From Siphonodentalium dalli (taxonomy: Eukaryota; Mollusca; Scaphopoda; Gadilida; Siphonodentaliidae), in assembly GCA_032622095.1 (NCBI GenBank), contig CP136069.1:165656394-165720393 (forward strand): DNA of 64,000 nucleotides, given 5' to 3'. The notes below the pieces were generated by a model. The model had not been told where the DNA came from and made no database searches. It saw only the letters and a list, made by a program, of their open reading frames with translations. A program made the translations under genes and the position numbers. This document shows, one piece after another, positions 26,931 to 58,718 of the stretch; the first letter of the stretch is position 1, and each line of letters begins with the position of its first letter.

Positions 26931-26939
26931 TTATTCTTT

Positions 26940-27215
26940 TCAAAAAAATGAAAAAGTTTAAAAGTTCAAAAAGTTCAAAAATTTCAAAAATTTCAAAAAT
27001 TCTAAAAAATTCAAAAAACTCAAAAAACTCAAAAAACTCAAAAACTTCAAAAATTTCACAAATTTCACAAATTTCAAAAAAGTTCAAAAACTTCAAAAAA
27101 TTTCAAAAATTTCAAATTTTTTAAAAAACTCAAAAATTTCAAAAACTTCAAATATTTCAAAAACTTCAAAAATTTCCAAAATTTCCAAAAACTTCACAAA
27201 AAATTCTAAATTATT
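26940..27215. repeat. (TTCAAAAA)n-type A-rich tract, left arm
   Basis: Imperfect repeats of TTCAAAAA and TTTCAAAAAT. The reverse-complement tract lies at about 33,585-33,790. A related tract occurs at 37,900-38,085 in the small relative of this element. Lys/Ser and Phe-rich open frames here are repeat translations. Confidence 0.85.
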
Positions 27216-27229
27216 CAAAAATTTAAACA

Positions 27230-27975: not shown

Positions 27976-28110
27976 AACCATCTTGGCTACCACCCCCAAT
28001 ATGAATATATAACGAAGTCGATAATAACAGTTTGATGAAGTTTATTAAAATTTAATCATCGTCTGACTCTTCAACCTTTAGATTTATTTCCAAGAGTTTC
28101 TTGAATTTTC

Positions 28111-28674
28111 TCATGGCTTCATCCGCAGCCCATTCATTATTATTCCGAGTTTTGTCAGCTTGACCATTTTCTTCATGATAGTGTTATGTATGGGCGATGT
28201 TTTCAATCGATGCTGGTATTCTATCAATCGTCTGTAACTTTTGAGAAAGAGTTCAAAATCTGTGTCGATGCATTCTAGTTGAGCTTTTTCCTCGGCCTCT
28301 TCTTCCGGCATGCTCTCTTCTTTCATTAATTGATCAACTTTATCTGACCACTCTTCCATCGCTTCCGCACCGTTGCTAACGAGTTGAAACATACTTTTGA
28401 ATGTATCCATCTCGTTGACACATTTCGCAGCTTTCTTACAGCCGATTACCGCACTACTACCGGCGAAGCTATTATCTGACGAATCTGATATCATTTCCTG
28501 TTCATCTTCGTCGGAATCTATATCCGTTTCTAGATCATACGCATTATCTTCGTATCGACCGAAGGTATCGTTATTCGATGATGTTCCTGACATAACTCGG
28601 TGTTTACTATTCTTATGTCTTTGCAGATTGTAGTTCGTCGATAATATCTTCCCGCACAAATGGCACCCGTGCAT
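28111..28674 (-). CDS. C2H2 zinc-finger protein with acidic centre (left arm)
   Basis: A 187-residue frame. Residues 4-25 form one classical C2H2 finger (C-x2-C-x12-H-x4-H, beginning CHLCGK). A Ser/Asp/Glu-rich segment with DSDEDEQE follows, then a charged, probably helical C-terminal half (EEAEEKAQ, FELFLKSYRRLIEYQHRL). The role is unknown; a single finger plus an acidic region would suit a DNA- or RNA-binding regulator encoded by the element. The start is the ATG just before the finger, about 65-75 bases downstream of a TATA-like TTTATAATA. Compared with the right arm, the last ~10 codons are in a shifted frame: a longer Lys-rich tail ending in EESDDD continues in another frame to about 28,067. 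The gene reads outward towards the element tip. Confidence 0.65.
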   Translation of the reverse strand: MHGCHLCGKILSTNYNLQRHKNSKHRVMSGTSSNNDTFGRYEDNAYDLETDIDSDEDEQEMISDSSDNSFAGSSAVIGCKKAAKCVNEMDTFKSMFQLVSNGAEAMEEWSDKVDQLMKEESMPEEEAEEKAQLECIDTDFELFLKSYRRLIEYQHRLKTSPIHNTIMKKMVKLTKLGIIMNGLRMKP

Positions 28675-28729
28675 TGTCTCGAATTATGGGAAGAACTATC
28701 GTCCTTATACGAGCGAAAAGATGAGCGAA

Positions 28730-28835
28730 TATGGTGTGGTATTATAAACTCACGCGTTCTTACCTCTATTTTTCGTTTAGAGTTAGTGTTCTTAGGTAAA
28801 AAAAATTGGCGCGCGTGCGGCCCCTGTCGCCGTCA
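28730..28835 (-). promoter_or_regulatory. Putative promoter of the C2H2 gene (left arm)
   Basis: On the gene strand it reads CGCGCGCC, then TAAGAACACTAACTCTAAA, AAAAATAGAGGTA, ACGCGT, GAGTTTATAATACC and CACACC. The same ordered words stand upstream of the PC4-like gene (29,317-29,405) and in both right-arm counterparts. TTTATAATA may act as a TATA box. Conservation between two non-homologous genes of one element is the main support. Confidence 0.6.
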
Positions 28836-28938
28836 TTGGTAGGGATTGATTAATCGAGCGATAATTTAATGAGCGTTTGTATATGACGCGTATAAGGTCA
28901 AATGAATAACGAACATACGTATTTGAATTATTATTTAA

Positions 28939-29169
28939 TCAAAATTTCATCAAATTGCCCGTGCAACACGTATCGCATAGCATATACGATTCTTGATTGT
29001 CGTGACTGAACGAGCACGGTGTGAACTCAGTCCAGTCGGGTATTGTCTCTGAAATGTCACTCTTTAGTTCACATAAATTCTGGAATTCTTGAACAGTCAA
29101 ACAGATTCCACGTTTCGACGGTTTAGTCACGTCTTCCATAGTTTTATAATAGTCTCGTATATGCACCAT
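28939..29169 (-). CDS. PC4/SUB1-like coactivator domain protein (left arm)
   Basis: A 76-residue frame. Residues 2-45 fit the PC4 (transcriptional coactivator p15/SUB1) fold: VHIRDYYK near the N-terminus, then KPSKRGICLTVQEFQNLCEL, matching the family's I-R-x-Y/W ... K-P-x-K-x-G-I-x-L-T pattern. PC4 domains bind single-stranded DNA and can stimulate transcription. The short C-terminal part has four Cys (CDTCC and an earlier one) that might bind a metal. It lies about 260 bases upstream of the C2H2 gene on the same strand, with its own copy of the shared upstream motif. The start is the first ATG before the domain. The family call is from motif reading, not from a search. Confidence 0.7.
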   Translation of the reverse strand: MVHIRDYYKTMEDVTKPSKRGICLTVQEFQNLCELKSDISETIPDWTEFTPCSFSHDNQESYMLCDTCCTGNLMKF

Positions 29170-29316
29170 CTGAAAATCTTGACTATATCATAAAAATGTC
29201 TTGTTCCCGATATGAAATTCATAAGATTTCCTCTCTGTTATAGCCGACCAGACACGTTTCATTTCTAATTTTAGATGTTACGTGTCCCGACATGACCCCT
29301 AATTCTAGAGAATGCG

Positions 29317-29405
29317 GTGCGGTATTATATAAACTCGACGCGTCCGTACCTCTATTTTTATTTTAGAGTTATTGTTCTTATGTAAAATAAAAGGGCGCGC
29401 GCTGC
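29317..29405 (-). promoter_or_regulatory. Putative promoter of the PC4-like gene (left arm)
   Basis: On the gene strand: GCGCGC, ATAAGAACAATAACTCTAAA, AAAAATAGAGGTA, ACGCGTCGAGTTTATATAA and TACCGCACCGC. It parallels the motif upstream of the C2H2 gene. The TATA-like TTTATATAA is about 160 bases before the ATG. Confidence 0.6.
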
Positions 29406-29489
29406 CCACTCCCCTCCCCTTTTTCGGTGTGGGGTTTTCTTTCGTAAGGGGGGATCGTCCGTCGAAAAAAAAGATAATTTTTTAAGACT

Positions 29490-31203
29490 CTTTTTGCTCA
29501 GTTGCTCTTTTCCCCTCTCCCCTATTGCTTACTTGCTCTATTCCCCTATCCTCACTTGCTCATTTTCTCTTTTTCCACTTCACCTATTGCTCACTTGCTC
29601 TCTTTCCACTCTCCTCACTTGCTCAGTTGCTCTTTTTCCCCTATTGTTCATTTGTTCTTCTTCTCCCTGCCATATTGCTCACTTGCTCTTTTTCTCTCTT
29701 CCCCTATTGCTCACTTGCTCTTTTCGCTCTCCTCACTTGCACAGTTGCTCTGTTTTCCATATTGATCAGTTGCTCTCCTCCCCTCCCTTATTGCTAACTT
29801 GCTCTCTTTCCCCTCTCCTTACTTGCTCAGTTGCTCTTTTCCCCTCCCCTATTGCTCACTTGCTCTTTTCCCTCTCCCATATTGCTCATTTGCTCTTTTG
29901 CCCTCTCCTCACTAGCTCAGTTACTCTTTTTCCCCTCCCCTATTGCTCACTTGCTCTATTCCCCTATCCTCAATTGCTCATTTTCTCTTTTTCCACTTCA
30001 CCTATTGCTCACTTGCTCTCTTTCCACTCTCCTCACTAGCTCAGTTGCTCTTTTTCCCCTATTGCTCAGTTGTTCTTCTTCCCCTCCCCTATTGCTCACT
30101 TGCTCTATTCCCCCTATTGCTCACTTGCTCTTCTTCTCCCTCCCCTATTGCTCACTTGCTCTCTTTCCACTCTCCTCACTAGCTCAGTTGCTCTTTTTCC
30201 CCTATTGCTCAGTTGTTCTTCTTCCCCTCCCCTATTGCTCACTTGCTCATTCCCCCTATTGCTCACTTGCTCTTCTTCTCCCTCCCCTATTGCTCACTTG
30301 CTCTTTTTCCTCTCCTCACTTGCACAGTTGCTCTGTTTTCCATATTGATCAGTTGCTCTCCTTCCCTCCCCCATTGCTAACTTGTTCTCTTTCCCCTCTC
30401 CTTACTTGCTCAGTTGCTCTTTTCCCCTCCCCTATTGCTCACTTGCTCTTTTCCCCTCTCCTCACTAGCTCAGTTGCTCTTTTTCCCTATTGTTCAGTTG
30501 TTCTTCTTCCCCTCCCCTATTGCTCACTTGTTCTATTCCCCTCTCCCCCTTGCACATTCCCATGTTGCTCACTTGCTTTTCTTCCTCTCCCCTATTGCTC
30601 ACTTGCTTTTTTTTTCTCCTCCCCATATTGCTCACTTGCTCTTTTTCCCTCTCCCCTATTGCTCACTTGCTCTTTTTCCCTCTCATCACTTGCTCAGTTG
30701 CTCTGTTCCCCTATTGATCAGTTGTTCTTCTTCCCCTCCCCTATTGCTCACTTGCTCTTTCCCCCCTTTTCTTACTTGCTCAGTTTCTCTTTTCCCCTCA
30801 CTCCTATTGCTCACTTGCTCTTTTTCCTCTCCCCTATTGCTCACTTGCTCGTTTTCCCTCTCCTCACTTGCTCAGTTGCTCTTTTCCCTCTCCCATAATG
30901 TTTGCTCGATCTTTCCCCTTTCCTCACTTGCTCGTTCCACTATTGCTCAGTTGCTCTTCTTCCCTCTCATCAATGCTCTGTTGTTCTTTTTTCCCTATTG
31001 CTCAGTTTCTCTTCTTCTCCCTCCCCTATTGCTCATTTGCTCTTTTTTACTCTCCTCACTTGCTTAGTTGCTTTTTTGCCCCTCCTCACTTGCTCAGTTG
31101 TTCTTCCCTCACTACTATTGCTCACTTGCTCTTTTTCCCTCACCTCTATTACTCACTTCCACTTTTTCCCTCTCTCCTATTGCTCATTTGCTCCTTTTCC
31201 CTT
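29490..31203. repeat. Pyrimidine-rich minisatellite forming the palindrome loop
   Basis: Hundreds of CTCACTTGCTCTTTTCCCCT / CCCCTATTGCTCA variants with a ~25-30 bp period. It is related to, but distinct from, the arm minisatellites (it carries the extra CCCTATTG word). Long Leu/Ser/Phe/Cys-rich open frames (such as 29,831-30,898) exist in all three forward frames and are rejected as genes. Confidence 0.9.
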
Positions 31204-31284
31204 TTTTTTCGACGGACGATCCCCCCTTACGAAAGAAAACCCCACACCGAAAAATGGAGGGGAGGGGGCAGCGCGCGCCCTTTT

Positions 31285-31362
31285 TTTTTACATAAGAACA
31301 ATAACTCTAAAAGAAAAATAGAGGTACGGACGCGTCGAGTTTATATAATACCGCACCGCATT
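31285..31362 (+). promoter_or_regulatory. Putative promoter of the PC4-like gene (right arm)
   Basis: Mirror copy of 29,317-29,405 with the same ordered words, including TAACTCTAAA, AAAAATAGAGGTA and TTTATATAATACC. Confidence 0.55.
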
Positions 31363-31504
31363 CTCTAGAATTAGGGGTCATGTCGGGACACGTAACATCT
31401 AAAATTAGAAATTAAACGTGTCTGGTCGGCTATAACAGAGAGGAAATCTTATGAATTTCATATCGGGAACAAGACCATTTTTATGATATAGTCAAGATTT
31501 TCAG

Positions 31505-31735
31505 ATGGTGCATATACGAGACTATTATAAAACTATGGAAGACGTGACTAAACCGTCGAAACGTGGAATCTGTTTGACTGTTCAAGAATTCCAGAATTTA
31601 TGTGAACTAAAGAGTGACCATTTCAGAGACAATACCCCGACTGGACTGAGTTCACACCGTGCTCATTCAGTCACGACAATCAAGAATCGTATATGCTATG
31701 CGATACGTGTTGCACGGGCAATTTGATGAAATTTT
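31505..31735 (+). pseudogene. PC4-like gene, right-arm copy, frameshifted
   Basis: It is identical in plan to the left-arm gene through the PC4 domain. An extra C near 31,618-31,619 shifts the frame after residue 38 (CELKSD), and a second extra C follows near 31,638-31,641. The downstream DNA still matches the left arm base for base apart from small changes, so the damage is recent relative to the palindrome. The start ATG and upstream motif are kept. Confidence 0.75.
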
Positions 31736-31860
31736 GATTAAATAATAATTCAAATACGTATGTTCGTTATTCATTTGACCTTATACGCGTCATATACAAA
31801 CGCTCATTAAATTATCGCTCGATTAATCAATCCCTACCAATGACGGCGACAGGGGCCGCA

Positions 31861-31955
31861 CGCGCGCCAATTTTTGTTACCTAAGAACACTAACTCTAAA
31901 CGAAAAATAGAGGTAAGAACGCGTGAGTTTATAATACCACACCATATTCGCTCAT
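31861..31955 (+). promoter_or_regulatory. Putative promoter of the C2H2 gene (right arm)
   Basis: Mirror copy of 28,730-28,835: CGCGCGCC, CTAAGAACACTAACTCTAAA, AAAAATAGAGGTA, ACGCGTGAGTTTATAATACC. Confidence 0.55.
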
Positions 31956-32001
31956 CTGTTCGCTCGTATAAGGACGATAGTTCTTCCCATAATTCGAGAC
32001 A

Positions 32002-32757
32002 ATGCACGGTGCCATTTGTGCGGGTAAGATATTATCGACGAACTACAATCTGCAAAGACATAAGGAATAGTAAACCACGTTATGTCAGGAACATCATCGA
32101 ATAACGATACCTTCGGTCGATACGAAGATAATGCGTATGATCGAGAAACGGATATAGATTCGGATGAAGATGAACGGGAAATGATATCAGCTAAGAATGG
32201 TAAACACGGAGTTATATCAGGAACACCGTCGAAGAACGATGTATTCAGTCAATACGAAGATGCTGAGTATGATCTAGAAACGGATAAAGATTCCGACGAA
32301 GATGAACAGGAAATGATATCAGATTCGTCAGATAATAGCTTCGCCGGTAGTAGTGCGGTAATCGGCTGTAAGAAAGCTGCGAAATGTGTCAACGAGATGG
32401 ATAACCATTCAAAAGTATGTTTCAACTCGTTAGCAACGGTGCGGAAGCGATGAAGAGTGGTCAGATAAAGTTGATCAATTAATGAAAGAAGAGAGCATGC
32501 CGGAAGAAGAGGCCGAGGAAAAAGCTCAACTAGAATGCATCGACACAGATTTTGAACTCTTTCTCAAAAGTTACAGACGATTGATAGAATACCAGCATCG
32601 ATTGAAAACATCGCCCATACATAACACTATCATGAAGAAAATGGTCAAGCTGACAAAACTCGGATATAATAATGAATAGGCTGCGGATGAAGCCATGAGA
32701 AAATTCAAGAAACTCTTGGAAATAAATCTAAAGGTTGAAGAGTCAGACGAGATTAAA
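32002..32757 (+). pseudogene. C2H2 gene, right-arm copy, several frameshifts
   Basis: The counterpart of the left-arm zinc-finger gene. The finger region is broken by one-base indels just after the ATG and near the finger's end. The acidic segment is present twice in tandem (about 32,082-32,190 and 32,200-32,325; NDTFGRYED... and NDVFSQYED..., each ending SDEDE-EMIS), whereas the left arm has one. A further indel near 32,445 separates the C-terminal half (EEEAEEKAQ onward), and a TAG at about 32,677-32,679 interrupts the Lys-rich tail, which then runs on to the conserved EESDE end. Confidence 0.7.
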
Positions 32758-32829
32758 ATTTTAATAAACTTCATCAAACTGTTATTATCGACTTCGTTAT
32801 ATATTCATATTGGGGGGTGGTAGCCAAGA

Positions 32830-33550
32830 TGGTTGACTTGCTCTTTTTCCTTCTCCTCATTTGCTCACTCACTCTTTTTCCCTCACCTCACTTGCTCTTA
32901 TTCCCTCTCCTCACTTGCTCTTTTTCCCTCACCTCACTTGCTCACTTGCTCTTATTCCCTCTCCCACATGCTCACTTGCTATTTTTCCCCTCTCCTCACT
33001 TGCTCACTTGCTCTTTTTCCCCTCTTCTCACTTGCTCTTTTTCCCTCTCCTCACTTGCTCACTCGCTCTTTACCCTTGCTCTTTTCCTCTTGCTCACTTG
33101 CTCTTTTTCCCTTGGTCGTTTGCTCTTTTGCTCTTTTTCACTTGCTCACTTGCTCTTTTGCCCTCTCCTCACTTGCTCTTTTCCTTTTTCATCACCTCAC
33201 TTGCTCACTTGCTCTTATTCCCCCTCCCCACATGCTCACTCGCTATTTCCCCCCTCTCCTCACTTGCTCACTTGCTCTTTTCCCTCTCCTCACTTGCTCT
33301 TTTCCCCTCTCCTCGCTTGCTCACTTGCTCTTTTCCCCTTGCTCTTTTGCTCTTTTTCCCTTGCTCACTTGCTCTTTTTCCCTTGGTCGTTTGCTCTTTT
33401 GCTCTTTTTCACCTGCTCTTTTCCCTCTCCTCACTTGCTCATTTGCTTTTTTTCACTTGCTCACTTCCTCTTTCCCTCTCCTCACTTGCCCATTTGCTCT
33501 TTTCCCCACCTCCTCACTTGCTCAGTTGGTCTTTCTCCCTCTCCTCTATT
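32830..33550. repeat. TTGCTCACTTGCTC minisatellite, right arm
   Basis: Reverse complement of the left-arm minisatellite 27,230-27,975, with indel differences. Open frames of over 200 codons in three frames are compositional. Confidence 0.9.
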
Positions 33551-33584
33551 TAATCTTTTCTCGATTTTGATTTTGTTTCATGTT

Positions 33585-34210
33585 TAAATTTTTGAATAAT
33601 TTAGAATTTTTTGAATTTTTTGGAAATATTTGAAATTTTTGAAGTTTTTGAAATATTTGAAGTTTTTGAAATTTTTGAACTTTTTGAACTTTTTTGAAAT
33701 GTTTGAAATTTTTGAAATTTTTGAGTTTTTTTAATTTTTTTTAATTTTGGAAATTTTTGAACTTTTAAACTTTTTCATTTTTTTGAAAAGAATAAAGTTT
33801 TTCACTGCGAGTGTCACTTTAACATTCATCCACAGTGTGTGCCGTGTGTCACCTTAACAGTCATCCACAGTGAGTGCCTAATGTCCCTTTAAATTCACTT
33901 TATGAGTACCGAGTGTCCCTTTAACAATCATCCACAGTGAGTGCTGAGTGCCACTTTAACAATCATCCACAGTGAGTGCCTAGTGTCACTTTAAAACAAA
34001 CATCGACAGTGCGTGCCTAGTGTCCCTTTTTAAATTCACTTTATGAATACCGAGTGTCCCTTTAACAATCATCCACAGTGAGTGCCGAGTGTCACTTTAA
34101 CAATCATCCACAGTGAGTGCCTAGTGTCACTTTAACAATCATCTACAGTGGGTGCCTAGTTTCCTTTTAAATTCACATTATGAGTACCGAATGTCACTTT
34201 AACATTCAAG
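33585..34210. repeat. T-rich tract and ~55 bp repeats, right arm
   Basis: TTTTTGAAATTT-type tract (33,585-33,790), then GTGTCACTTTAACAATCATC and CACAGTGAGTGCC units. This mirrors 26,530-27,215. Confidence 0.85.
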
Positions 34211-34528
34211 ACTGAAGCTACCTCCTGTTCATCAAGGTCCTCACGTAATATCCATGTAGATAATATTCCGTTCATTATACGCGGGTGGACCGAAAGCGGT
34301 GCCGTACAGATCGTCTAGCACCTGACCTCAAATAGGTCATGACATATGATGACCTAGGATTATGTAAATTAGCGAGAAAGTAGGTCATGACCTATGATGA
34401 CCTAGGTCAAACTGCCTAGACTGAGTACTGCAGAGATTATAGGTCAAACTGTCTAGACTGAGTACTGCAGAGAATATAGGTCAAACTGTCTAGACTGACA
34501 CCAAACAGGCGGTATATCATCAACTATA

Positions 34529-38960: not shown

Positions 38961-39213
38961 ACGCACAATTTATTTAGCACCAGCCACAATGAAGCCAAAC
39001 CGGAATTCGCACACAAGTAACCAGTCGACGTAAACATCTCCGTAATAATTATAATATTACGTCGACACGAATTCATGTAAAAACCCATTTCCAGAACCGT
39101 GGGCTTCCCCCAATATCGTGACGTCATACTGATGTCGCAGACATTCCAAACAAGGAATAATTTATGCGCGTCAATCAATTTAAGTAAACAAAGTAAAGCG
39201 TGCTACCGGAATC

Positions 39214-42200
39214 ATGGCGTCGGTACCGACACCTGTTAAATTTATTAAAAGAAGTGAAATTAAATCATGTATGCTTTGCGACTATTCTTTTGAAGGGACT
39301 CATGTTACAAAAACTGGAAGATTGGAACATAGTATAAAAAATAAACATGTTTTAACGGAATGTTGTATTGGAATGTTACGAGAGGCAGAGATTTACAGAA
39401 CACTGAATATCGGCACCGGTTATTTCGCCGCCGACCAGAATCATGCCATTTGTCACAAGTGTTTTTCTTTGATGAAGCAGCTGGTCAAAATCAATACAAC
39501 TATTAAAACTAACTTTAAATCAGTGCCACATGACCGAGTTAAACGACTATTGCGTTCGCCGTATACAGATGGGCAATGTGCAAAGAAAAATAAACTGATT
39601 TCCTTGGAGCTTGAAAAAGGTTCTGAAAATATTCCTGTGGAATTCAAAACAATTAAAAGGACACCTCTGAAATCGTTCACCAACCTATTGTGTGACCGAA
39701 TTCAAAGTGTTGGTACGACAACTGACAGTCCACGGTTGAGACTCGGACAACTGCAAGACATTACAACCAAGATAAAGACTCCAATGAAAGAAAAGAAAAA
39801 ACCGAAAGCGAAAAAATGTCTGGAATTTGGGGAAAAAACAGATGAAATACACAATACATGTAAAGTGAGTATTCTCCTCTTTGTATACACTGTAACTCAC
39901 TGTTTACATGGCATCATTAAAGGGGCAGTACGCACTCGGAAGCAAAAACAAAATAGGAAAAATTATCTTGTTTGGAATGGATCAGTGGATAAAAATATTA
40001 AGGAAAATATATACCACCCATCAAATTCCGATTTTGTCTCCGACGCTACTATACTATATCTGATCTGGCGTATATAAAAGCAAGAGAAAGAGGAATCTGA
40101 CTTACTAGCGTCAAATTTGAGACACATAATCAATATATAGCTTCAATAATATACGGTTTGTTCTATTTACGACTGTATTAATACAGTGAGAAAAGCTCTT
40201 TATTGCTTCATATAAATACAACATATAACATTACGTGTTGTGAAATACAATTTCACAGTCGTATACCGACATACATAATGTGATATTTTGGTAATTGTTC
40301 GGATATTTGACTCATGGTGTATATTTTCTTTAATATTTTTAGCAACTGAACTGTTCAAAACAATATTGTTTTTCATTTTGTTTTGCTTCGAGTGCGTACT
40401 GCCCCTTTAAATCAATTCATAATCTTTAAAGCAATTTCTTATTTTAGTGTTATATCAGCAACATACAGCATACAATATTTTGGTTATTTTACAGACACGT
40501 GGTATATAGGTTCCATAATATATTTTGCCATAGAACTGTTCCAAACAAGATTATTTTTTCAAAATTGTTTTGCTTTGAGCCCGGAATGCTCCTTCAACCA
40601 TATTTTGCATTTAATTCTTAAAAAAGATCATGTTTATAATTCAAACAAATATTTAATTTGGCACATATTGAGATGTACGAAGGCGACAAAATTGTATCGA
40701 GTTGTACCCTCATGTATATTTAAGTAGCCCCATTTACATGTACAGTATATCTGTTCTTGTATATGTAGCCCTTTATATGCATGTAGGCCACTGTTTATTT
40801 TACACCCCTATAAATAAATGTAGATAGATTTATATTGTATACAATGTATGATAACACTAATATTTATATATATATTAAATTTGTTTTATATTTATAAAAA
40901 AACATGATGTAAATAAATATAAAACATTGCAATTTCAAGTCACATTCATCTATCCTTCGAAAAAGAGAGAATTCACCATAGTGGATCCAGTGGAACAGAG
41001 CATTATTTCATCGATGGTGTACAAAAATCATATGGGCCTGGTCAAGAAATGTTCTGTTTTGTGCGAAAGAGAAATGATCGAACACTTCTGCACCATTCTA
41101 AACAAAGAATGCATCAAAATATGTTCGAAAAACACTGATTCAATTCTGCGAAGTAAGGACATAGAGACCCTATTCACCTTTCAATGGGACAAAATTTATG
41201 ATGAACTTGAACTTGTAGCACCCGCTCTATGTAAAATTCTTGGTGCTATTGTGGGATCATCGACACAGGACAATGTTAATAGGAGGCGAGTTTCAACAAC
41301 AGCAGCAGTTGCTCTGAGGCATAGAAATATGCAAATGAATCTACTCCAGCACATGACGGGTATCATCCTCAGTAATGGTGGATGCAGCTCCAAGGTATTT
41401 AGAATACTTTAGAACACCCATGTGTACACTTTACATTTCAATTGATTAAGTTGTTTACAAACTCAAAACAAAGTTTCTTTTATTTCGGAGACTTCTAAAT
41501 TGAAATTGCTTTTGAAATATCAAATGCTGAGATATATTTGGACATCATACCTTATTTCAAATGTTTATATGAAACCACACATAACATAACATATTTACGT
41601 TGGAACTGCATGTCGACTGCATATGACTATACACAACAATGTCACCTACATGTTCATAAATGCACGTAGGCGTAAATTGTATGTTCTATAATGCATCAGT
41701 CGCATCTAGGTGTCAAGACGTTTATCATCTCATTATATTGTTAAATGTCATTCTACATATTGTTGAATATCATTCTAGGCCCAGCAGCGTCTACAAAAGA
41801 TAGGATTTTGTGTAACACGTGAGACTTCGAATGCTAAGATCAAGGCGATTGCTGGACGAAGTAGACAAATTAGTCACCGAATGGACATCTTCTTTGAAAA
41901 GATCATGTGAAAACAATTCAGGAATGTAAGTATCACTAACTAATGTAATTTACATTCCAGCAAACGTGATTTCACAAGATCGGATAATTGAGGAAGAATA
42001 AATTCTTAGTTAACGATGGAAAATTCTTTACACCCGATTATGCCCCAAGTCCTTAACAATACACAAGTACAGTCATGCTCACCAGACTAAAATATGTTTA
42101 AAGTAATCCATATATCTACTGGCAATAATACAACAAATACATGGATTTTTTTTTTTTAAATAGTCTAGGGTTAGTCCAGACTCTAAATACAATCTGTGCA

Positions 42201-43646
42201 TGTATATATTATTTCAGTGCTATATCACCAACATACAACATGCGTGTGGTATAATATGTTTAGCCACTGAAGCGTTTCAAATAACACTATTTTTTCAAAT
42301 TGTGTTGTTTCTAGTCCAGATTGCCCCTTTAAAATTGGGAATGTTTTTATGTTTTGGACGAAATTTCCATAATATGACATGCTGTCAATGACATTTATTT
42401 GCAGGATAGTCACATCTGTACCACCATCACCAGATTTCAAGAAATACAGTCTGGCCGGTGACAATTGGGACAGGAGAATCGTCCCGACATATCTCACTTC
42501 GGATAGACGAGTGGATGATCAACATTTCTTCAACAGCGTTTTGCTTGTGGATCGTGTGAAGGGTGATGGCTTGGAATGTATTCAACCACTCAAGGAGATT
42601 CGCCTGCATGAGAATATTGAGTGGATACCATCAAAAACAGAGCAAATACTCGTGAAATCTGAGATAGCATATCTGATAGTATCTAGAACACTAGAATACA
42701 TGCCTCAACTAACGAAGCTTCTGAAGTCAAGAAAAACAGCCTTTCCAGAGACATACTTTAATCCAATGGCCGACGCAATGAAGAAAAAGTCTGAACAGGT
42801 AAACTTATTTCAGACATTATTTACATAATTATTTGTGAACCTGGTACATGTGAAGAATAATTATAACTAATAAATATATCACAACATTTCAATTTGTCGC
42901 ATAAAAACTTCCATGGATTAGGATTGATTAGTCACTTTAGCAACTAGGCCATATCATGACGAGTCCATGGATTAGGATAAGAACACATTTTGAATATAAA
43001 TATTTAGTGAAATATGCATATGAAGTAAATTATAATAACAAAATCAGTATCAATGGTGTACTGTGTACACAAAGTAATCTGACAATTTATAGACTGACAT
43101 AAGTTTAATAAATTTAAATCACTCTCTTCCAATTTAATCAAACTTCTAATTTGAAAACTGAAATGTTACATGTACCTGTTAGGAGATCCTCTATATTGGT
43201 TGTTATATATCTCTAAGACAGCAGAAATTACTATTTGGTTGATCAGTATGAGTTTATGGATGATTGGATGTAGAAATATATTAACATCAATGTTTCTCTT
43301 GGGCGGTCTTTGAAATAATACAACATCATGTCAACATGTTGACTAAATACTTTTAAATTTTGTTCTTCAGTATGTCCTGGGCTTGGAAGAAATAAATGAG
43401 TCAAAGACTGCCGATATGATTGAGCTCATGAAGACACTCACCAAAGAGTTCACTCCACAAGTGAGCACACCTGACACTGAAACCATAGCGCCTATCTTCC
43501 TAGGAGGTGACTGGCTAACCGATGAACGGGCGCAGGGAGCAAAGAGGTGTATGGCTAGTTTAAAAGAGACAACTACCCCTCTTCAAAAGCTTGATGGGTT
43601 AATACCAAAATCAGAGGATCTCCACAGAAGCATGAATAATTTAGAG
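39214..43646 (+). pseudogene. DUF6589-type transposase, five exons, frameshifted and C-terminally incomplete
   Basis: Proposed exons: 39,214-39,859, 40,940-41,394, 41,779-41,925, 42,405-42,798 and 43,371-43,646. Each is bounded by GT-AG, and phases agree across every junction. The N-terminus has paired cysteines (CMLC at residues 19-22, CHKC later), a likely zinc-binding module. Exon 4 carries GDNWDRR and DDQHFF. Exon 5 carries GGDWLTDERAQGAKR and LDGLIPKSEDLH, close to the family's GDQ-LT-ER-RGAKR and IP-x-x-D-H patterns; W stands where most members have Q. Exon 3 changes frame once (between CVTRETSN and RRLLDEVDKLVTEW, about 41,820-41,840). The conserved C-terminal third of the family is not found before the helicase gene, so it is deleted or beyond recognition. 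The start is the ATG in a CATGGCG context. Confidence 0.8.
39921..40406. mobile_element. 486 bp TTAA-flanked MITE in transposase intron 1
   Basis: The termini AGGGGCAGTACGCACTC and GAGTGCGTACTGCCCCT are perfect inverted repeats flanked by TTAA on both sides (39,917-39,920 and 40,407-40,410). A TTAA target with G-rich ends suits Kolobok- or piggyBac-type elements. Related partial copies follow at 40,411-40,620 and 42,220-42,345. Confidence 0.75.
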
Positions 43647-43691
43647 GTAAGTCTATAAACTAAATAAAATGGACAAGACCTATAAAATAGG

Positions 43692-43760
43692 CAGTCGACG
43701 CGAACATCTCCGTAATAATTCCACTCTATGATATTACTGAGAAGAAATTTATGTCGACTG
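43692..43760 (+). mobile_element. 69 bp internal-deletion derivative of the 9.1 kb transposon, 9 bp TSD
   Basis: The left 28 bases (CAGTCGACG, then GAACATCTCCGTAATAATT) match the left end of the 9.1 kb element. The right ~30 bases (ATTACTGAG, AAATTTATGTCGACTG) match its right end. TAAAATAGG directly flanks both sides (43,683-43,691 and 43,761-43,769). It sits just downstream of transposase exon 5, inside a larger copy of its own family. Confidence 0.85.
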
Positions 43761-43769
43761 TAAAATAGG

Positions 43770-44692
43770 GTGTTCCAACTTCAGCGGATACAACTATTAT
43801 ATACATTTATTGCCGTGTCAATATAAGGTTGACAAGGAAACATCAATGTGAGTATATAAATACATGTATACATCAACAATATTTACATTATGGGATTATG
43901 AAATTAGTCATAACAATGCGATAAATATATTTTATGTTGTACACCAGTAATACGAATCTAGACATTTGATTCGTCAGTTAAATCCAAAATATGAGAGCGT
44001 ATTTTGTATTGACTGAGAAGCGCAACCGTCGATTGGCTGTCCATTTAATTTCGGCTGGAAAGGTTGAATGTTAATCCATATTTCATCCAGAGCAAATAAA
44101 TAATCTTATAATCCTGTGTTAAAAGTTAACACGACCATGTGTGTCTGCATGTACAGTAATTCCCAAATTAATTGACCACTTATTTATTTGGCACCAGAGA
44201 GTATGTATTCTGTTAACAAAGCATCAATGATAACATTTGGCAAATCCTAACAGAATTTGGCAAAAAATAGTTTCATTTGGCAAAAGTAAATTTCGGTCCA
44301 GCGCGGACCCTGAGCATCATGTCATATCCGACAGCTGCAGTGATTATTGAAACAATCTGAATTTATTGTCAAGTTTGTACATTGTACAAACAGACTACCG
44401 GTAGTTGGCAAATCAATATTGAATGGCATAGGAATCATAATTATAATAAATTATTACATTTGCCTGTCAGAAATGTTCAATCCACTTTGGAGAACATCTT
44501 TGTCGGTCAAAATGGAATAAAATTGCTAGTCGAATCGTTGAGTAGTTACACAATAAAAAATATGTACGTGTCTTAAGGCTTAAAGCCCTTTCACATTTAT
44601 TCAATTGACTGAATGTTATATATTTAAAACAATTTTTACAGCATGTATACGTTTGTAGTATACAATTCAATAAATCACTGATGCAATATCGT
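43770..44692. other. Gap between the two transposon genes
   Basis: The missing C-terminal exons of the transposase would be expected here, but no frame with family motifs is visible. The only notable frame (44,382-44,576) shows no recognised motif. Confidence 0.5.
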
Positions 44693-47600
44693 TTATTCTG
44701 TTGATGATAATGATGATGTCGATGATGATTGATCAGTGTCTGACCCTGAAAGTTCATTAAAAATGTGAAGTCGATGTTCAATCGGAAGCAAACTACTATC
44801 ACACGAACCACAGTCACAGGAATGTGCACAAATATCACAACATGAATGTTTGATAACATTGAATTCCATATTCTGATTGTTGAAATTTTTGGCGATGAAT
44901 ATCCGCCTGCATTCAGTGTTGTTATTTGCATAGTCTTTCATCGAATCACCACATGTTTTCAGCATCGACCCATTAAACATCAACAATGAGAGCGAAGGTT
45001 GTCCCTCTCTTCCAATTCGACCTGTTTCTTGCACGAAGCAGTCAACATCATCTGGTGGACCATAATGAAGTGCTAAGAATGTCCCCTTCATGTCAACACC
45101 CATGCCCAACGCACTTGTTGCAATAATTACTCTCAGTGGACTATCGGATTCACTCACTGATTTCAAAATATCTTCTTTGACAGGTTCTTCAGTCTTCGAA
45201 TGGAATTGTGCAAGGAAGTTTTTTTTCTTTAACTCTTCACTCAACTCCTTCAATAGAAAGTCATGGATATTGCCACATTTAAGAATTGATGAACAATAAA
45301 TAATCATTCTCGGTATCGTGTCGATGTTCATCTTGTTGTCATTGATGAGGTCAACAAGCCAGAACAGATTTTCCCCGACATTCGGACTGCATCGCATCAC
45401 CATATATTTAATATTTCACCTATCGGGATCCTTCAGAATCACCATCACATCATGTGCTAACTCCAACGATTTTTAAATAATTTTCTGTGTCTGCAGGGAT
45501 GCTGTTGCCATCAGACATAGGATGGGAACATCTGGCAGAACTGATCGAAGTTCACTAACATGTCTGAACCACACTCGAAATGGGTTAGATTGTCCACCTT
45601 GTTTCTCTCCCCTGGAAAGAAAATATAAATAAACATTTAATACACATCTGACACATCAGTTTTGTTTTCAATTTGGAAGTCTATCACAGAATAGGCCATG
45701 AAACTTGGAAGTGACATTGCACCGATTGTATGTTAAATGGAATACACCATCAGGCACTGTGTCAAACATTCTGATTGGGTGTATATAACACTGTATTAGG
45801 TAATTTAACGAGCAACTAAACTGGTTAAATTTCAAATAACCTAACATAAAATCAAATTGGGTGTCTTCCACCTTTTTTTAAAAAGATAATGTTTTCCCAC
45901 CTCAAAGTAATCGCTGAATTGTTTAACCCATCTGATTCCATCAATTATACTAAATCAAAACTATTAAACTATATTTTAATAACCCTTATGATTATCATGT
46001 ATTACATGTAATGATCATTTAAAAATATGTTTGAATAATTTCAAAGATTTAATAAATAAATTAGTTGACGAATAGTTGCTAATACTTTACCTTTTCACAA
46101 TACAAATTTAATAAATACTATAAAACTTGGCTCCTCACCTGATATAGTTCTAACCTCACCAGATAGGACAAAATTGACAATGTATAGAGTACATCAATAC
46201 AAGACGCAGTAAGTCAGTAACGTACATATGTGTACTTAGTGAACATGTAACTGTACTCTCGAGGTCTGATGCACATATGGGTACTATTTTTTATTAATAC
46301 CCCCCCCCCCCCTGTACTGAACAATACTAGTAATGTTCAACGTCGTGTGAAAATGTTCTTATGATATATGATCTGCCATTAATATCAGATTCCAACAGTT
46401 TGCAATCAACTCACCATTTGGCAACGGTATGTACTTCATCTACCACGATACACAGGACTTTTCCTCTGTATTTGTCTAAAAGAACATCACGCCATCTGTT
46501 GTTGCCAACCAAACTTTCTGGGCTGCCTACAATGAAAGTGTTCAACGTTCAATTATGTGAAAAATAGCAAGATGTTCAGTAATGTGAACTCATGTTTTAT
46601 AACAATAATAAATATCATTGATCATCACCCATGTTGATCTCACTCAGTGGAGTCAGTTCATGTGCATTTACTACTGTGTTCTTTTAAGCACGTATAAAGC
46701 ATTTACAATTTGACTAACTATTCCAATAATAAATAATGTGTATATATGTTTACAAATTACATACATGAACAACATGCGTGTTGTACTAATAACTAATTTT
46801 AATATTAATTTAATTGGTCATGATAGTGAAAATTCCAGCACTATTAATAATTATTAGGGGTAAATGTAAGCCAGCACGTTTATTCAGCAAGCTCGTTTCT
46901 TTGGACAGGTCTGTGAATACTAATACATGTATATAGTTCATAACACGAATCTTTAATACACGATTCACCTGTCTGGGGAATCGGGATACTAGTTCAAGTT
47001 GTTCACTTGCAAATACAAATTTAAAGAACTGATTAGTGATTTGGACAAGTCAAAATTAGTTCAAAATAAACGAAACGATATCTGCACTGTAGTCTGTTCC
47101 GTATTGCACCATACATATTTGTGGTGAAAAAATTGTATGGTGCAGCCCTCTTAATTCAGATTGTTTGGCTTCGGCAATCCGCTACGGCAACACTACGTAT
47201 GCTGTGGCCCAGTTTGCTTCAGCAAATTGCTTCGGCAATGCTGATTGCCGTAGCCAATTATGTAGGCTGTATGGTGCAATATTAAACGGAACAGAGCCTG
47301 TCCGAAGAGATATCTTTCCGTTTATTTTAAACTATTAGTCTAAAATATACTGACTTACCTAACACGACTTCAAGTTCACCATTTGCAATTTTCTTATCAA
47401 TGTCCTCTGATTGTCCAATAAATCCAGCGGACACACCCAGTTTCTCCATTCTGCTGACTTGATCCCTCATCAAACTTTTAAGAGGAGCCACAATGATCAA
47501 ATGCATTCCACTGTATTGTTTGCAATGTTCATCGTTAGCCATTTTCATCAAAATCAATGGTGATATTTGGTGCGGAAGGCTCTTTCCAAAACCAGTCGGC

Positions 47601-47752
47601 AAAATGCACAAAACATCACACCTGTTTACGAATATTGCCGACAACACTTGAAATTGTTCAGATTTCAACTCTGAAATAACTGTCTCTTTCAAGATAGACG
47701 AAACACACTTCACTAACACATTGTCTCGGTCTTTGTCCACTATAACACTCAT
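44693..47752 (-). pseudogene. RecQ-like superfamily 2 DNA helicase, three exons, two in-frame stops
   Basis: Exon 1 (47,359-47,752) has Walker A (LPTGFGKS) and motif Ia (IIVAPLKSLMRDQ). Exon 2 (46,415-46,526) has the DEVH box. Exon 3 (44,693-45,611) has motif III (CLMATAS), RMIIYCSSI, the V-like IIATSALGMGVD and the VI-like QETGRIGREG, then a Cys cluster (CRRIF ... CCDIC ... CDCGSC) like the RecQ zinc-binding domain. GT-AG borders and phases fit at both introns. Exon 3 contains TAA at 45,473-45,475 and TGA at 45,416-45,418 in an otherwise continuous frame. RecQ enzymes unwind DNA 3' to 5'; a role in processing transposition intermediates is inference. No HRDC domain is visible. The last residues are Ser-rich. 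Confidence 0.85.
47055..47338. mobile_element. ~280 bp MITE in helicase intron 1
   Basis: About 70 bases at each end are imperfect inverted repeats: left AGTTCAAAATAAACG, GATATCTGC, CTGTTCCGTATTGCACCATA; right TATGGTGCAATATTAAACGG, AGATATC, CGTTTATTTTAAACT. It ends about 20 bases before the splice donor of exon 1. The TSD is not resolved. Confidence 0.65.
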
Positions 47753-48148
47753 TTTCCTATTGTGATGTGATTATTAAAAGCGTCGAAAACGAGTTTTACC
47801 GATGAATAATGTCTTTCTTTTTAAAAAATATTTTTAACAGGAAGCTTATTTGTCAATGTGTGCGCATGCTCAAATTAAAATTTCTCGTCTCTTTGCTCCG
47901 CCCAGTATTTAAATTTAGATCAATATACACACCTGTTTATGGTGATAACTGGGCTATTTTTACGGGACACGCGCAGCTGTTATCGGTTAGCCAATCGGGG
48001 CCAGCGCTTTCTGGTACCGCTTCCAATCAAAACAAGGAATTCCCTGGTATATCCCCAAGTCTGGAAATAGAATTCCGGCCAGTCCTGTTCGACTCAGATG
48101 AATTTATATGATATACTGAGTCGAAATTTATGTCGACTGACAAGTAAC

Positions 48149-53586: not shown

Positions 53587-53977
53587 CCCTTTACCCAACA
53601 AACCGGCCATAACCGGCCAAATAAAGCTTCAACAGCCTAAATTATCTTGGGTCTGTCTCAATAAAACCATACAAATATGGATATCATTGGAACCGGCTCA
53701 TTGACCACAGTGTGATGGTTACAGTTATGCCCTGTGCCAATGCATTCTCTTATATATGCGAGTCGACCATAGGTCGCCTCGCATATATAAGAGAATGCAT
53801 TGGCCTAAACAAATCTGTTTTTAACACTTTTTACCATTTTTTCTTACATTCTTTAACAATTTTATAATTTTTAATGTGTTAAGCCAATGCATTCTCTTAT
53901 ATATGCGAGGCGACCTATGGTCGACTCGCATATATAAGAGAATGCATTGGCACAGGGCCGTTCTGTTGGGTAAAGGG
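53587..53977 (+). mobile_element. 391 bp piggyBac-like MITE, copy A
   Basis: The ends CCCTTTACCCAACA and TGTTGGGTAAAGGG are inverted repeats. The right flank is TTAA and the left flank TTAG, a one-base change from the TTAA target. It contains two 69 bp hairpin modules (53,736-53,804 and 53,883-53,951) around an AT-rich spacer. TTAA plus CCC/GGG ends is the piggyBac pattern. Confidence 0.8.
53736..53804. repeat. 69 bp near-perfect palindrome module (first of nine)
   Basis: It reads GCCAATGCATTCTCTTATAT, ATGCGAGTCGACC, ATA, then the mirror back to AATGCATTGGC, with one mismatch. Other copies: 53,883-53,951, 55,704-55,773, 55,992-56,060, 56,778-56,846, 56,926-56,993, 57,428-57,495, 57,575-57,643, 58,603-58,671, and a diverged one at 20,394-20,462. 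Short minus- and plus-strand peptides sharing LYMR or ECIG come from this module and are not genes. Confidence 0.95.
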
Positions 53978-55648
53978 TTAAGCCACGTGTGATGATTCCA
54001 GTATCTCACTGTGACCACGAATGAGGTAATTCCGGTATTCACTCAAAACACGAAGGTTTTCTTTTTATTATATGCGCTATTTACTAAAATAGATCAAGGA
54101 ATTAATTCAAAATCGAACTGATTCCGATTCACATCGGCAATACAATTTCTGCACAACAAACAGAGAGACCACGTGGTTCAATAAAATACTGTCGATAACT
54201 CAGAATACACATGCTTCAAATGTGCGTAATATATCAGATAACCAACTTACTGTACTATTAGCAATGTGGCCAGAAATTCAAAAATATCCGGGGGAGGCCA
54301 CCTGATCCCCTCCCGTACTCCCCCCCCCCCTCAGGACTTCGGGAGATGCCTTCGGCATCTCCTGCTGGGATACTACTCGCCTCGACATTTTGTAGGAGAG
54401 CTACTCGCCACTCGCCTAGAATGATTTTAAGGGGAGCTCCTCATTGCTCACCAGTTATTTCCCACATGGAGAGGACTCGAACTGTGTTTATTTAATCAAA
54501 TTGATGGTGTTTTTACTTTACACATGCACATATTTTAACCTATTGCTAATAAGGGACACAACTATCCTGTTAAAGTGGGTAATTTACCTTTATAACAATA
54601 AATATTTCGGTTTTTAAAGGTTTTGTCACTGGTTTTGTTGGCATATTTTTCAGCCATGTGCTTTGTTTGTTTATTTTTTGTGGGTGTACTTGATCAGCGT
54701 TCTCTCAGTTCCGGCGCAGACACAATGAGAGACCCTTACCCTGCCAAGAACACATTACTTAGTAGAATTTACAAGATTTTCATCAATTTTGGGGATGGGT
54801 GTCCCAGACCTGGGTGGAAAAAACTTACGGTCCCGGTGGGTGTCCCAGACCTGGGTGGAAAAAACTTACGCTCCCGGGGTGGTGGGTCCCAAAAACTGAA
54901 CAACACAAAATTTCCACCTTGTATCCGTAATTTTGTTCCTGACCCCCCCCCCCCCCCTGATTCATGTGTTAATTGTGGCTATTGTAATCACTTACGTTAC
55001 CAGAAATATTTGGATTTTTTTAATCACTCTTGACAAAATTTATTTTTCATGTTCAGACCATATTTTCAAGAAAAAGAGAAATATCTCTTGTGTGTTTCTT
55101 GTCTTGAACTCTCTTGATTGTCTTGCACAGATAAATTATTTACCATATTGCTCATAATGCAAAGAAAAATGTTAGTTACTCAATGGCAACTACATATTCT
55201 ATTCCGACAGTGCCAGTGTCGTATGAGCCATGAACAATATATTTAAGAAAAACAGCGGTGTGAAATTGTGCCGAATATTGAGTAACATAGTCTTAAGACG
55301 ACATCCATAAAAAAGCAATTCCATTGATATGTTGCTCCATTTACAACGAAATCTCTTACAATGTATCGATGAATTCGGATAATTCTCACCGATTATACGT
55401 TAGATCAATTAAATATCTAGTTAGTTTCCAATGAATTGTTGGCGGAATTTTATTGAAATGAAACAACTTCAATGTGCACTTCAATATGAGCGCAGTATAC
55501 GATACATGTGTTGGTTCACGGTTTAGTACTTGCCAGTAAAATACTCTCAATCTGTATTTAGCATATTTATCATTGATTAATAATACGACATGTCACTGTG
55601 CTAAGATCATTCATTATGTATCCTCCCACACTATCCCAGTTAATTGCC

Positions 55649-56115
55649 ATATGTGACCCGCCATATAAAATACAGTCGTAAGTCGGGATTTTCTTTACCC
55701 TGTGCCAAATTACTTCTCTTATATATGCGAGTCGACCATAGGTCGCCTCGCATATTTAAGAGAATGCATTGGCCTAACAATTTTTTACCATGTTTTTTAA
55801 ATAAATGTTTCTTACAATTTTTAGGACATAAAATAAAAAACATCCATTACCCTGTAGGGAGCCCCACACATATATAGAAGCATATAGAAGAGTGTCGTCT
55901 GCTCATGTTTGTCTGGGGCTCTGTATGGGTGAAATTATAAAATTGTTAAAGAATACAAGAACAAATTATTAAAATTGTAAAAAATTGTTAGGCCAATGCA
56001 TTCTCTTATATATGCAAGGCGACCTATGGTCGACTCGCATATATAAGAGAATGCATTGGCACAGGGTAAAAAAAATCCCGACTTACGACTGGATTTGATA
56101 TGGCGGGTCACATAT
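55649..56115. mobile_element. ~467 bp MITE with ATATGTGACCCGCC termini
   Basis: ATATGTGACCCGCCATAT on the left and its exact reverse complement on the right. The next ~35 bases inward (ACAGTCGTAAGTCGGGATTT) are also inverted with few mismatches. It contains two 69 bp hairpin modules, although its termini differ from those of the TTAA MITEs. The TSD is unclear. Confidence 0.75.
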
Positions 56116-56751
56116 TGCTGGCATTGAGCTATAGTCGGGTTTTCATTGTTATGCATAAACTTCATTTGCGTTATGTTATAGTATTGAAATCTGCTCTACT
56201 GGTATTTTGTTTTTCTTAAGAGACGAAAAGCCATTAGTCTTCGACGGCACCAGTTATTGGAATTCTGAATTACAACACTGGGAAGATTCGTGTCCATACA
56301 TGCATAGCGAGATCATGGTGGCAAATGGGTGACATATATTCCACTTAAATCGCCCGATTAACATTATCAAATGTGCAAATAATAGAAACTCACTTATTAA
56401 TGGACGTATGTTTTAAGTGACAGAAAATAGATATTGGCCACAACATTTCTAGCTACCAATACGAACATATCAGGAACATTTATTCCAATGACTCAATGAT
56501 TATTAGAAGGGAATTTCTTACCTTCGCTATATTAGTATGGAATTTGATGTTCTGGAAAACCCTGACTTCATATTACTCATTTATTGTGTTACTGGGAGTC
56601 AGACACCCACCACAGTCATAGTAAGCTGACATAGTACGATGAACAAATACATAGTCCTTCCTTGAATTGCAACATAGCTTGGCGCATGGAAATAAATGTT
56701 GTAAGTGAATACACATAAGCCGACCCAACAAATAACATAACTTTGAATTAA

Positions 56752-57142
56752 CCCTTTACCCAACAGAACGGCCCTGTGCCAATGCATTCTCTTATATATG
56801 CGAGTCGACCATAGGTCGCCTCGCATATATAAGAGAATGCATTGGCTTAACACATTAAAAATTATAAAATTGTTAAAGAATGTAAGAAAAAATGGTAAAA
56901 AGTGTTAAAAAAAGATTTTTTTTAGGCCAATGCATTCTCTTATATATGCGAGGCGACCTATGGTCGACTCGCATATATAAGAGAAGCATTGGCACAGGGC
57001 ATAACTGTAACTATCGCAATGTGGTCAAGGAGCCGGTTCCAATGATATCCATATTTGTATGGTTCTATTGAGACAGACCGAAGATAAGTTAGGCTGTTGA
57101 AGCTTTATTTGGCCGGTTTTGGCCGGTTTGTTGGGTAAAGGG
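56752..57142 (-). mobile_element. 391 bp piggyBac-like MITE, copy C (inverted)
   Basis: TTAA on both sides (56,748-56,751 and 57,143-57,146), with the same termini as copy A but the internal AACCGGCTCC-side block at the right. Exactly 391 bases between the targets. Hairpin modules at 56,778-56,846 and 56,926-56,993. Confidence 0.85.
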
Positions 57143-57278
57143 TTAAATGAACCACGTTTGGGCATGACAATGTCGGATTCAGGTAATTACATGTAGTATC
57201 ACAAAAAGCTCACCATTTTAGGTCGAGTCAACTGGATGTTCATGCCTATTTGCAACCACGCATCAGATGTTACTTTAA

Positions 57279-57669
57279 CCCTTTACCCAACAAACCGGCC
57301 AAAACCGGCCAAATATAGCTTCAACAGCCTAAAATATCTTCGGTCTGTCTCAATAGAACCATACAAATATGGATACCATTGGAACCGGCTCCTTGACCAC
57401 ATTGTGATAGTTACAGTTATGCCCTGTGCCAATGCTTCTCTTATATATGCGAGTCGACCATAGGTCGCCTCGCATATATAAGAGAATGCATTGGCCTAAA
57501 CAAAATCTTTTTTTAACACTTTTTACCATTTTTTCTTGCATTCTTTAACAATTTTATAATTTGTAATGTGTTAAGCCAATGCATTCTCTTATATATGCGA
57601 GGCGACCTATGGTCGACTCGCATATATAAGAGAATGCATTGGCACAGGGCCCTTCTGTTGGGTAAAGGG
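57279..57669 (+). mobile_element. 391 bp piggyBac-like MITE, copy B
   Basis: TTAA on both sides (57,275-57,278 and 57,670-57,673), ends CCCTTTACCCAACA and TGTTGGGTAAAGGG, hairpin modules at 57,428-57,495 and 57,575-57,643. Same orientation as copy A and only ~130 bases from copy C. Confidence 0.85.
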
Positions 57670-58292
57670 TTAATAGACACTCGAGAAAGAGAATAGGCCA
57701 TATATAGTGATATACTATAGCCAATAGATTGACATGGGCATGTGAAGTCTAGACTGAAAACCCCTTTCTCTGGTGTAATTATATTATCCAAAATCGTCTT
57801 CACTTCATTTGTCTTATAATAGCAACGGGACGTATTAGTCAAAACAAAGTAATGTACACCAACTTGCAAATGTTATCAGGGTAAATTGAGCCAAATATGG
57901 TGAATGTTGGTATATGACTGTCATCTTGACGTCCAACATGTATTAAGTGGATGACTATGATGAAAATGATCATTGTAGCTGTAGATTATGGTCCCTCTCA
58001 CTTCCTTTGCAAATTTTTTGTTGTTCCCTTTAACACGTGGCCAGAATCCCCCCCAAAAAATCAGCAAAATTCCATAATGCATCCTTTAAAATTAATTTGT
58101 CTTCCTCAGTAAGGTACTGGGACAACCATAATAGCATATCCAGTTGCCAGGAGATTAAGTAGCATGTCTAGTAACAAAGTAAATCACAGTTTGCGATCTT
58201 TGAAAAACATCAGAGAATAGTGTTCTGCATATGTGACAACATGTCTTCTCTTTTTTTAATATTTTGATTACATTTTTGAAAACCACCATTAA

Positions 58293-58718
58293 CCCTTTCA
58301 GTGCCAGGGGTCGATCTCTCTTCTTTTTTCTTTTTTTTAGATTATTATTTTTTTTTTGGGTTGAATTTTTTTTTGGTTATGCTTAAGCATGCTATAGCAA
58401 ATTTAAAAACAAACTGGATAAAACCTTAGGGGCATGCTATAACTCAAAACCAAGTATTCATAGTAATCATTTGATGCCCATGAAAAACGTAAGATTCCCT
58501 GACACTAAACCTACAAAATAAGTCTGTTAAAGAATATAAGAAAAAATTATTAAAATTGTAAAAAATTGTAAAAAATAATAACAAATGATGAAAAATTGTT
58601 AGGCCAATGCATTCTCTTATATATGCGAGGCGACCTATGGTCGACTCGCATATATAAGAGAATGCATTGGCACAGGGTATATGGGTTGATACAAAAATCG
58701 GACTTGGCACTGAAAGGG
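58293..58718. mobile_element. 426 bp piggyBac-like MITE, second family
   Basis: TTAA on both sides (58,289-58,292 and 58,719-58,722). Termini CCCTTTCAGTGCCA and TGGCACTGAAAGGG (the right one with a short inner difference). It carries one 69 bp hairpin at 58,603-58,671. Confidence 0.8.

Follow-up and report, generated by a model that had tools for sequence, protein, structure and literature searches.

Why some DNA transposons, such as AcademH and KolobokH, carry helicases is to our knowledge an open question, and it is raised again by an element of the scaphopod mollusc Siphonodentalium dalli found in a stretch of 64,000 nucleotides (assembly GCA_032622095.1, contig CP136069.1, positions 165,656,394 to 165,720,393; hereafter the window, with positions counted from its first letter). 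The element carries a DUF6589-type transposase gene and a RecQ-like helicase gene, to judge from its sequence most likely belongs to a known group, being AcademH-like, and is accompanied throughout the genome by short relics in which its two ends are fused to each other. We lean modestly towards reading these relics as excision scars of an AcademH-type transposon, produced by a staggered cut of about 39 nt at one end and 46 nt at the other, similar in kind to that of the P element, in which the helicase would have a role.

When the window was searched for inverted ends (at least 12/13 alike) 40 bp to 20 kb apart and flanked by a perfect 9-bp repeat, the end pair of the element was unique, 13 pairs of one palindromic array (53.8-58.6 kb) aside, and no comparable pair was found in 100 first-order Markov resamples of the window. 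The earlier note on this DNA had described 13-bp inverted ends, a perfect 9-bp duplication, GTCGA words near the ends, and two split genes arranged tail to tail (transposase on the plus strand, helicase on the minus strand); all of these were borne out in the sequence, the ends being alike at 12 of 13 positions, while its description of the transposon as complete was not, as a 3.2-kb segment with most of DUF6589 is missing and both genes are further damaged. Each end also contains an exact 10-bp subterminal inverted pair, and the inner arms contain the two motifs that mark the limits of the relics: GTCGAC on the left (39061-39066), 39 nt inside the tip, and TTCGAC on the right (48088-48093; GTCGAA on the other strand), 46 nt inside the tip. 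GTCGA is common to the inner and outer motifs in the same orientation. Of 5000 pieces of 60 bp drawn at random from the window, 1.1% have arms of at least 10 bp; among 5000 letter shuffles of each end, the count is 8 for the left end and 3 for the right.

The first sign of the relic class was a 69-bp relic nested inside the element, composed of 29 nt of left end, 14 nt, and 26 nt of right end; across the genome such fused-end relics measure 61-106 bp. A search of the species' own genome (2.23 Gb, 9 contigs) with the 69-bp query gave 97 candidates and 40 scored matches, all of which were examined, and both ends were present in 39 of them, representing 31 independent sites and 25 junctions. Because matches ranked by their similarity to a 69-bp piece cannot by themselves reveal a class of lengths, left ends were sampled regardless of length: the exact first 27 letters of the left end occur 384 times, and the first 100 occurrences in genome order were taken, 60 being retrieved together with about 1.6 kb of downstream sequence and the other 40 with 118 bp. 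For the 60, the length to the right end was 70-87 bp in 25, 480-620 bp in 27, and 897 and 1312 bp in the others measured; none fell at 88-479 bp, and 6 had no right end within reach. Of the 40 retrieved with less sequence, 16 measure 73-106 bp and count as short, and the other 24 run on beyond the retrieved part. The sample as a whole thus held 41 short copies (70-106 bp) with 18 distinct duplications, 22 of the 41 being due to one duplicated host repeat with the duplication TATAATTAT. Among the 59 left ends that are not short, 57 match the parent beyond 105 nt (54 with GTCGAC at the inner place, 3 with one substitution) and two break early, both outside the short count: L087 at 33 nt, with unrelated sequence after it, and L096 at 38 nt, which resembles a relic whose right tip has decayed. 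None of the 100 sampled left ends breaks at 41-105 nt.

From all sources, 86 short copies were collected, which, collapsed by duplication, come to 42 independent sites with 36 different junctions. Copies with other ends or another duplication length had been named in the earlier note as grounds for doubt; the ends were kept, and the 9-bp length held at 37 of the 42 sites (9/9 in 31, 8/9 in 6). Joins overlap by 1-4 nt at 27 sites, contain filler at 13, and show neither feature at 2 (25, 15, and 2 by a simpler count). An overlap is expected in about 57% of random blunt joins and was seen, by the simpler count, in 25 of the 27 filler-free joins, so that microhomology seems to be favoured there. 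One relic (L149, with its duplicate L150) reads as an exact join of 39 and 46 nt followed by a tandem copy. The TATAATTAT scar lies in a much-copied host repeat, in 81-bp and 87-bp versions on contigs C1, C2, and C3, and makes up 25 of the 86 short copies (L064-L066 and L097-L113 (16 of these), L137, L140-L143, L173). Longer copies also occur in pairs with a common flank or duplication (L033/L036, L133/L134, L154/L155, L156/L157), which suggests segmental duplication after insertion. The family further includes miniature inverted-repeat transposable elements (MITEs), mostly 534-566 bp long, which have a common structure and are flanked by many different duplications; amplified MITEs and short relics coexist and behave differently.

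The relics stop sharply at the inner motifs. Over the 42 sites the kept left ends are 25-40 nt long, only one exceeding 39 nt (40, ambiguous by 1 nt), and the kept right ends 26-46 nt, never more. Right-end subfamilies among the longer copies have the motif at 46, 45, or 38 nt; with distances taken to the best-matching variant at each site, a choice that favours small values, each of the 42 right breaks falls outside the motif by 0-10 nt, 9 of them lying directly at it. Among these 9 is L018, which matches the 38-nt variant, and the right limit therefore seems to be set by the motif rather than by distance. With breaks assumed to fall independently and uniformly over a range of up to 110 nt, such limits would have a probability of about 3e-15 on the left (18 sites) and 1e-25 on the right (42 sites), under a model that is crude and with a right set that was partly ranked by likeness to the short query; the gap in lengths is independent of this model. 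An origin of the relics by recombination between the inner pair of TCGAC words was ruled out, the motif being kept in 0/42 junctions.

Near one junction per site, a separate duplication at each site, and a limit set sharply by motifs all fit excision scars better than moving mini-elements. If the relics are scars, the transposase would cleave each transferred strand precisely at its CAGTCGAC tip and the opposite strand just outside the inner GTCGA motif, roughly 39 nt from the left tip and 46 nt from the right one. Duplexes of 39 and 46 nt are by our own reckoning too long to part unaided, which would make their separation a task for the RecQ helicase of the element. The departing element would then carry long single-stranded 3' ends, and the complementary 39- and 46-nt overhangs would stay at the donor site, where host end joining would trim them by 0-14 nt and join them, the expected product being a scar about 60-90 bp long that retains the two tips within the old duplication. 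This full scheme of AcademH-type excision, which combines an extreme stagger set by the inner GTCGA motifs, end separation by the helicase, and countable scars retaining both tips, is put forward tentatively, as a serious candidate.

Several observations weigh against reading the relics as excision scars. Among 113 ends with flanking sequence, no insertion point was found to be shared by a short copy and a long one, the shared insertion points being 369 short-short and 6 long-long pairs, so that excision at these sites is something that we infer. A good duplication is absent at 5 of the 42 sites (L010, L022, L051, L062, L077), and 5 junctions repeat at 2-3 sites each, as would be expected of a moving mini-element. 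The filler called by script at 13 of the 42 junctions is 1-22 nt long, in part reflecting base substitutions or tandem copying within the retained ends. All of the evidence comes from one genome and one family.

Other origins of the relics were weighed against these data. Abortive gap repair, in which excision at the tips is followed by templated fill-in that stalls at subterminal hairpins or at bound transposase, with subsequent joining of the stubs, seems to us unlikely. In its favour are the inverted pairs, which are exact over 10 bp at both ends and of a kind rare in random pieces, and the scar limits, which lie within the inner arms, up to 4 nt of arm being kept. Gap repair, as in P elements, yields deletion products of many sizes, however, yet the 60 long retrievals have the gap in lengths given above and the 100 left ends have no break between 41 and 105 nt. 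We give still less credence to an abortive side reaction in which the transposase sometimes takes the inner GTCGA for an end and cuts both strands there, the outer tips being left and joined. Such a mistake is suggested by the motif that inner and outer sites share in like orientation; the released inner pieces would, however, have the inner motif at their ends, and they seldom or never reinsert, since TTAC still precedes 217 of the 225 occurrences of the inner left motif, which is therefore not a common insertion tip (one of the 8 others, C1:49443403, falls in copy L040, aligned from element base 1), and the frequency of left-behind tips is not explained. That the short relics are themselves MITEs spreading by transposition is improbable: both ends and good duplications are present and, as noted, some junctions recur, but the variety of junctions (36 over 42 sites) differs from the repeatedly inserted MITEs of the family, with their common structure and size mostly of 534-566 bp.

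The excision reading gives a part to the helicase, and its place in the element is supported by a second copy (C9:128156572-128170613, 14,042 bp) with the same ends and with CGTCCGTCC duplicated at both flanks, the exact length of that duplication being less sure because CGTCCGTCC sits within short CGTC repeats. All five transposase exons were matched in this copy at 78-98% identity, as were the helicase exons apart from residues 411-439. The helicase lies between the ends of both copies, which occupy different sites and have unlike duplications; most probably it therefore belongs to the element, as in the earlier note, and is not a host RecQ gene at a conserved locus. Pfam matches to DEAD (1.2e-14) and Helicase_C (3.1e-10) were obtained, RecQ_Zn_bind reaching E 0.088, under its cut-off, and among proteins of solved structure the closest sequences are those of WRN (6.4e-30), bacterial RecQ, and BLM. 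A predicted model of one relative (P0001, mean predicted local distance difference test score 84.9) matches the WRN and RecQ catalytic cores with a template modelling score of about 0.7. On this likeness the protein may be called a RecQ-family helicase, much as the earlier note had proposed; it is too short to accommodate the later RQC and HRDC domains. The twelve top database relatives show 33-38% identity over lengths of 417-504 residues, the named ones coming from bivalves, a limpet, and a coral, and the top-scoring relatives overall are short helicases from bivalves, limpet, corals, sea urchin, and acorn worm. In a quick tree of 64 rows, drawn without host RecQ1-5 and with a long query branch, the query fell inside a 29-row group (SH-aLRT (Shimodaira-Hasegawa-like approximate likelihood ratio test) 96) with all RQC-domain rows outside it; 27 of the 64 rows have the C-terminal pattern CCDxC...CxC..C. 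Five distant helicase loci on viral contigs were left unused in interpretation. That a host RecQ gene was trapped between unrelated repeats, for which its membership of the RecQ family might speak, is so improbable that we reject it, as it is contradicted by the same ends flanking the helicase in both copies at different sites and by relatives that are short helicases, the best of them scoring 310 bits vs 108 bits for the best solved RecQ chain (in different databases).

The transposase gene of the window copy matches DUF6589 at E 7e-12, which upholds the DUF6589-type gene of the earlier note with a partial profile, just positions 13-153 of 410 being covered; a six-frame Pfam scan of 43649-44900 gave no match up to E 5, hence no more DUF6589 there. 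Copy 2 has, at the point that corresponds to 44178-44182, a 3.2-kb segment without counterpart in the window copy, which matches profile positions 139-224 (E 0.0018, under the cut-off) and 253-405 (E 6.7e-10), with a weak C2H2 match (E 0.029) between the two parts. In copy 2 the end of DUF6589 is split over two frames and about 105 bp of the element are absent; the window copy has one frameshift in the transposase gene, and one frameshift and one in-frame stop in the helicase gene. Because of these lesions, apparent from the sequences, neither copy is called active. In a large protein collection, searched by a method that detects only relatives sharing 5-residue words, no relatives were found for the joined transposase exons at E 0.001 or for region 225-635 at E 1, and nothing on DUF6589 was found in the literature searched. 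The C-terminal stretch of copy 2 around VELINRDLK presumably resembles the transposase C termini of AcademH-type families.

Table 1. Features of the element and its immediate surroundings in the window.
Feature	Position	Strand	Remarks
Probable AcademH-like element, internally deleted copy, 9118 bp	39022..48139		Ends and 9-bp duplication
Left terminal inverted repeat CAGTCGACGTAAA	39022..39034	+	12/13 positions match right end
Right terminal inverted repeat CAGTCGACATAAA	48127..48139	-	12/13 positions match left end
Left 9-bp target-site duplication ACAAGTAAC	39013..39021		Perfect repeat
Right 9-bp target-site duplication ACAAGTAAC	48140..48148		Perfect repeat
Left subterminal inverted pair	39024..39066		GTCGACGTAA (39024-39033) / TTACGTCGAC (39057-39066)
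Right subterminal inverted pair	48088..48125		TTCGACTCAG (48088-48097) / CTGAGTCGAA (48116-48125)
Transposase exon 1	39214..39864	+	N-terminal, C/H-rich; 3' border approximate
Transposase exon 2	40966..41394	+	5' border approximate
Transposase exon 3	41779..41925	+	Frameshift at 41832/41834
Transposase exon 4	42405..42798	+	DUF6589 begins
Transposase exon 5	43371..43646	+	Final DUF6589 portion in window copy
Nested 69-bp end-to-end relic	43692..43760		Inside element; own perfect duplication TAAAATAGG (43683-43691, 43761-43769)
Junction of missing 3.2 kb (rest of DUF6589)	44178..44182		5-bp overlap; comparison with copy 2
Helicase exon 3	44693..45611	-	Helicase C domain and Cys cluster; frameshift 45476/45469, stop 45416-45418
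Helicase exon 2	46415..46526	-	Motif II VVDEVHT
Helicase exon 1	47359..47752	-	Motif I LPTGFGKS
Nested inverted-repeat insert, AGGGGCAG ends between TTAA	39917..40410		In transposase intron 1; not element proper

Diverged relatives of the AGGGGCAG-ended insert lie in the same element as fragments (40461-40597 and 42190-42333), and a further short inverted-repeat insert occupies 47057-47334 in the first intron of the helicase gene. Elsewhere in the window, mirrored tandem repeats and mirrored open reading frames at 26263-34498, including one at 28111-28683 that is C2H2-like by eye, point to an inverted repeat of great length; palindromic units that recur at 53761-58640 carry TATATATGCGAGTCGACCATAGGT in either direction and also mimic 9-bp duplications; and tandem repeats of 16, 122, and 335 bp are found at 389-8744, some of which reappear as duplicated segments. 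An Rfam scan of the window gave no match at gathering scores.

Among known systems, Kolobok elements duplicate TTAA, P elements have a THAP transposase and no helicase of their own, and Helitrons have neither a duplication nor inverted ends; AcademH was reportedly described by Kojima in 2020 (Mob DNA 11:15), a work known to us through citing papers. Helitron was rejected, both a 9-bp duplication and inverted ends being present here. AcademH elements are reported to have duplications of 9 or 10 bp and AcademX elements of 3 or 4 bp, lengths that seem to be tied to the helicase and the nuclease, respectively (PMC10045372), and AcademH is stated to encode a helicase with DEAD and Helicase_C domains (PMC10799480). 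The element resembles AcademH in both respects: a 9-bp duplication is found in the window copy, in copy 2, and at the 37 short sites, and the encoded DEAD/Helicase_C helicase has a relative with a RecQ fold. It is set beside AcademH by these partial descriptions and not by end or transposase sequence. The AcademH-like reading of the earlier note thus fits, whereas its suggestion that the combination of helicase and 9-bp duplication may be undescribed does not stand, because AcademH has been reported with both. Scars limited by inner motifs are not mentioned in those portions of the AcademH literature that were examined, and we make no claim that they are absent from print. AcademX was rejected, the duplication being 9 bp rather than 3 or 4 bp; no nuclease match was found in the scanned stretches, which covered part of the reading frames of the element. 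KolobokH is a lineage of DDE transposons with a RecQ helicase of its own, and in a Kolobok of a red alga the helicase lies on the complementary strand, a placement like that found here (PMC9587614); KolobokH was nevertheless rejected, the duplications (ACAAGTAAC, CGTCCGTCC, and others) being 9 bp long instead of TTAA. The P element is described as cut at the 3' end at its tip and on the 5' strand inside, leaving 17-nt 3' extensions and a donor break open to end joining, with an 8-bp duplication and GTP as cofactor (PMC7776569). The cut proposed here would be staggered in the same sense, by about 39 and 46 nt vs 17 nt, and the P element superfamily was rejected on its 8-bp vs 9-bp duplication. 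Academ elements of bivalves, the animals in which most of the best helicase relatives also lie, are long DNA transposons and common there, according to a survey based on a transposase profile, the accessible text of which mentions neither helicases nor scars (PMC10294476).

If the relics are excision scars of the proposed kind, a long stagger set by inner motifs would give the helicase a defined step in transposition, one that could be tested on short DNA substrates. Past jumps of the family could then be counted in the genome, the scars being a readable record of excision of a kind rare for cut-and-paste elements.

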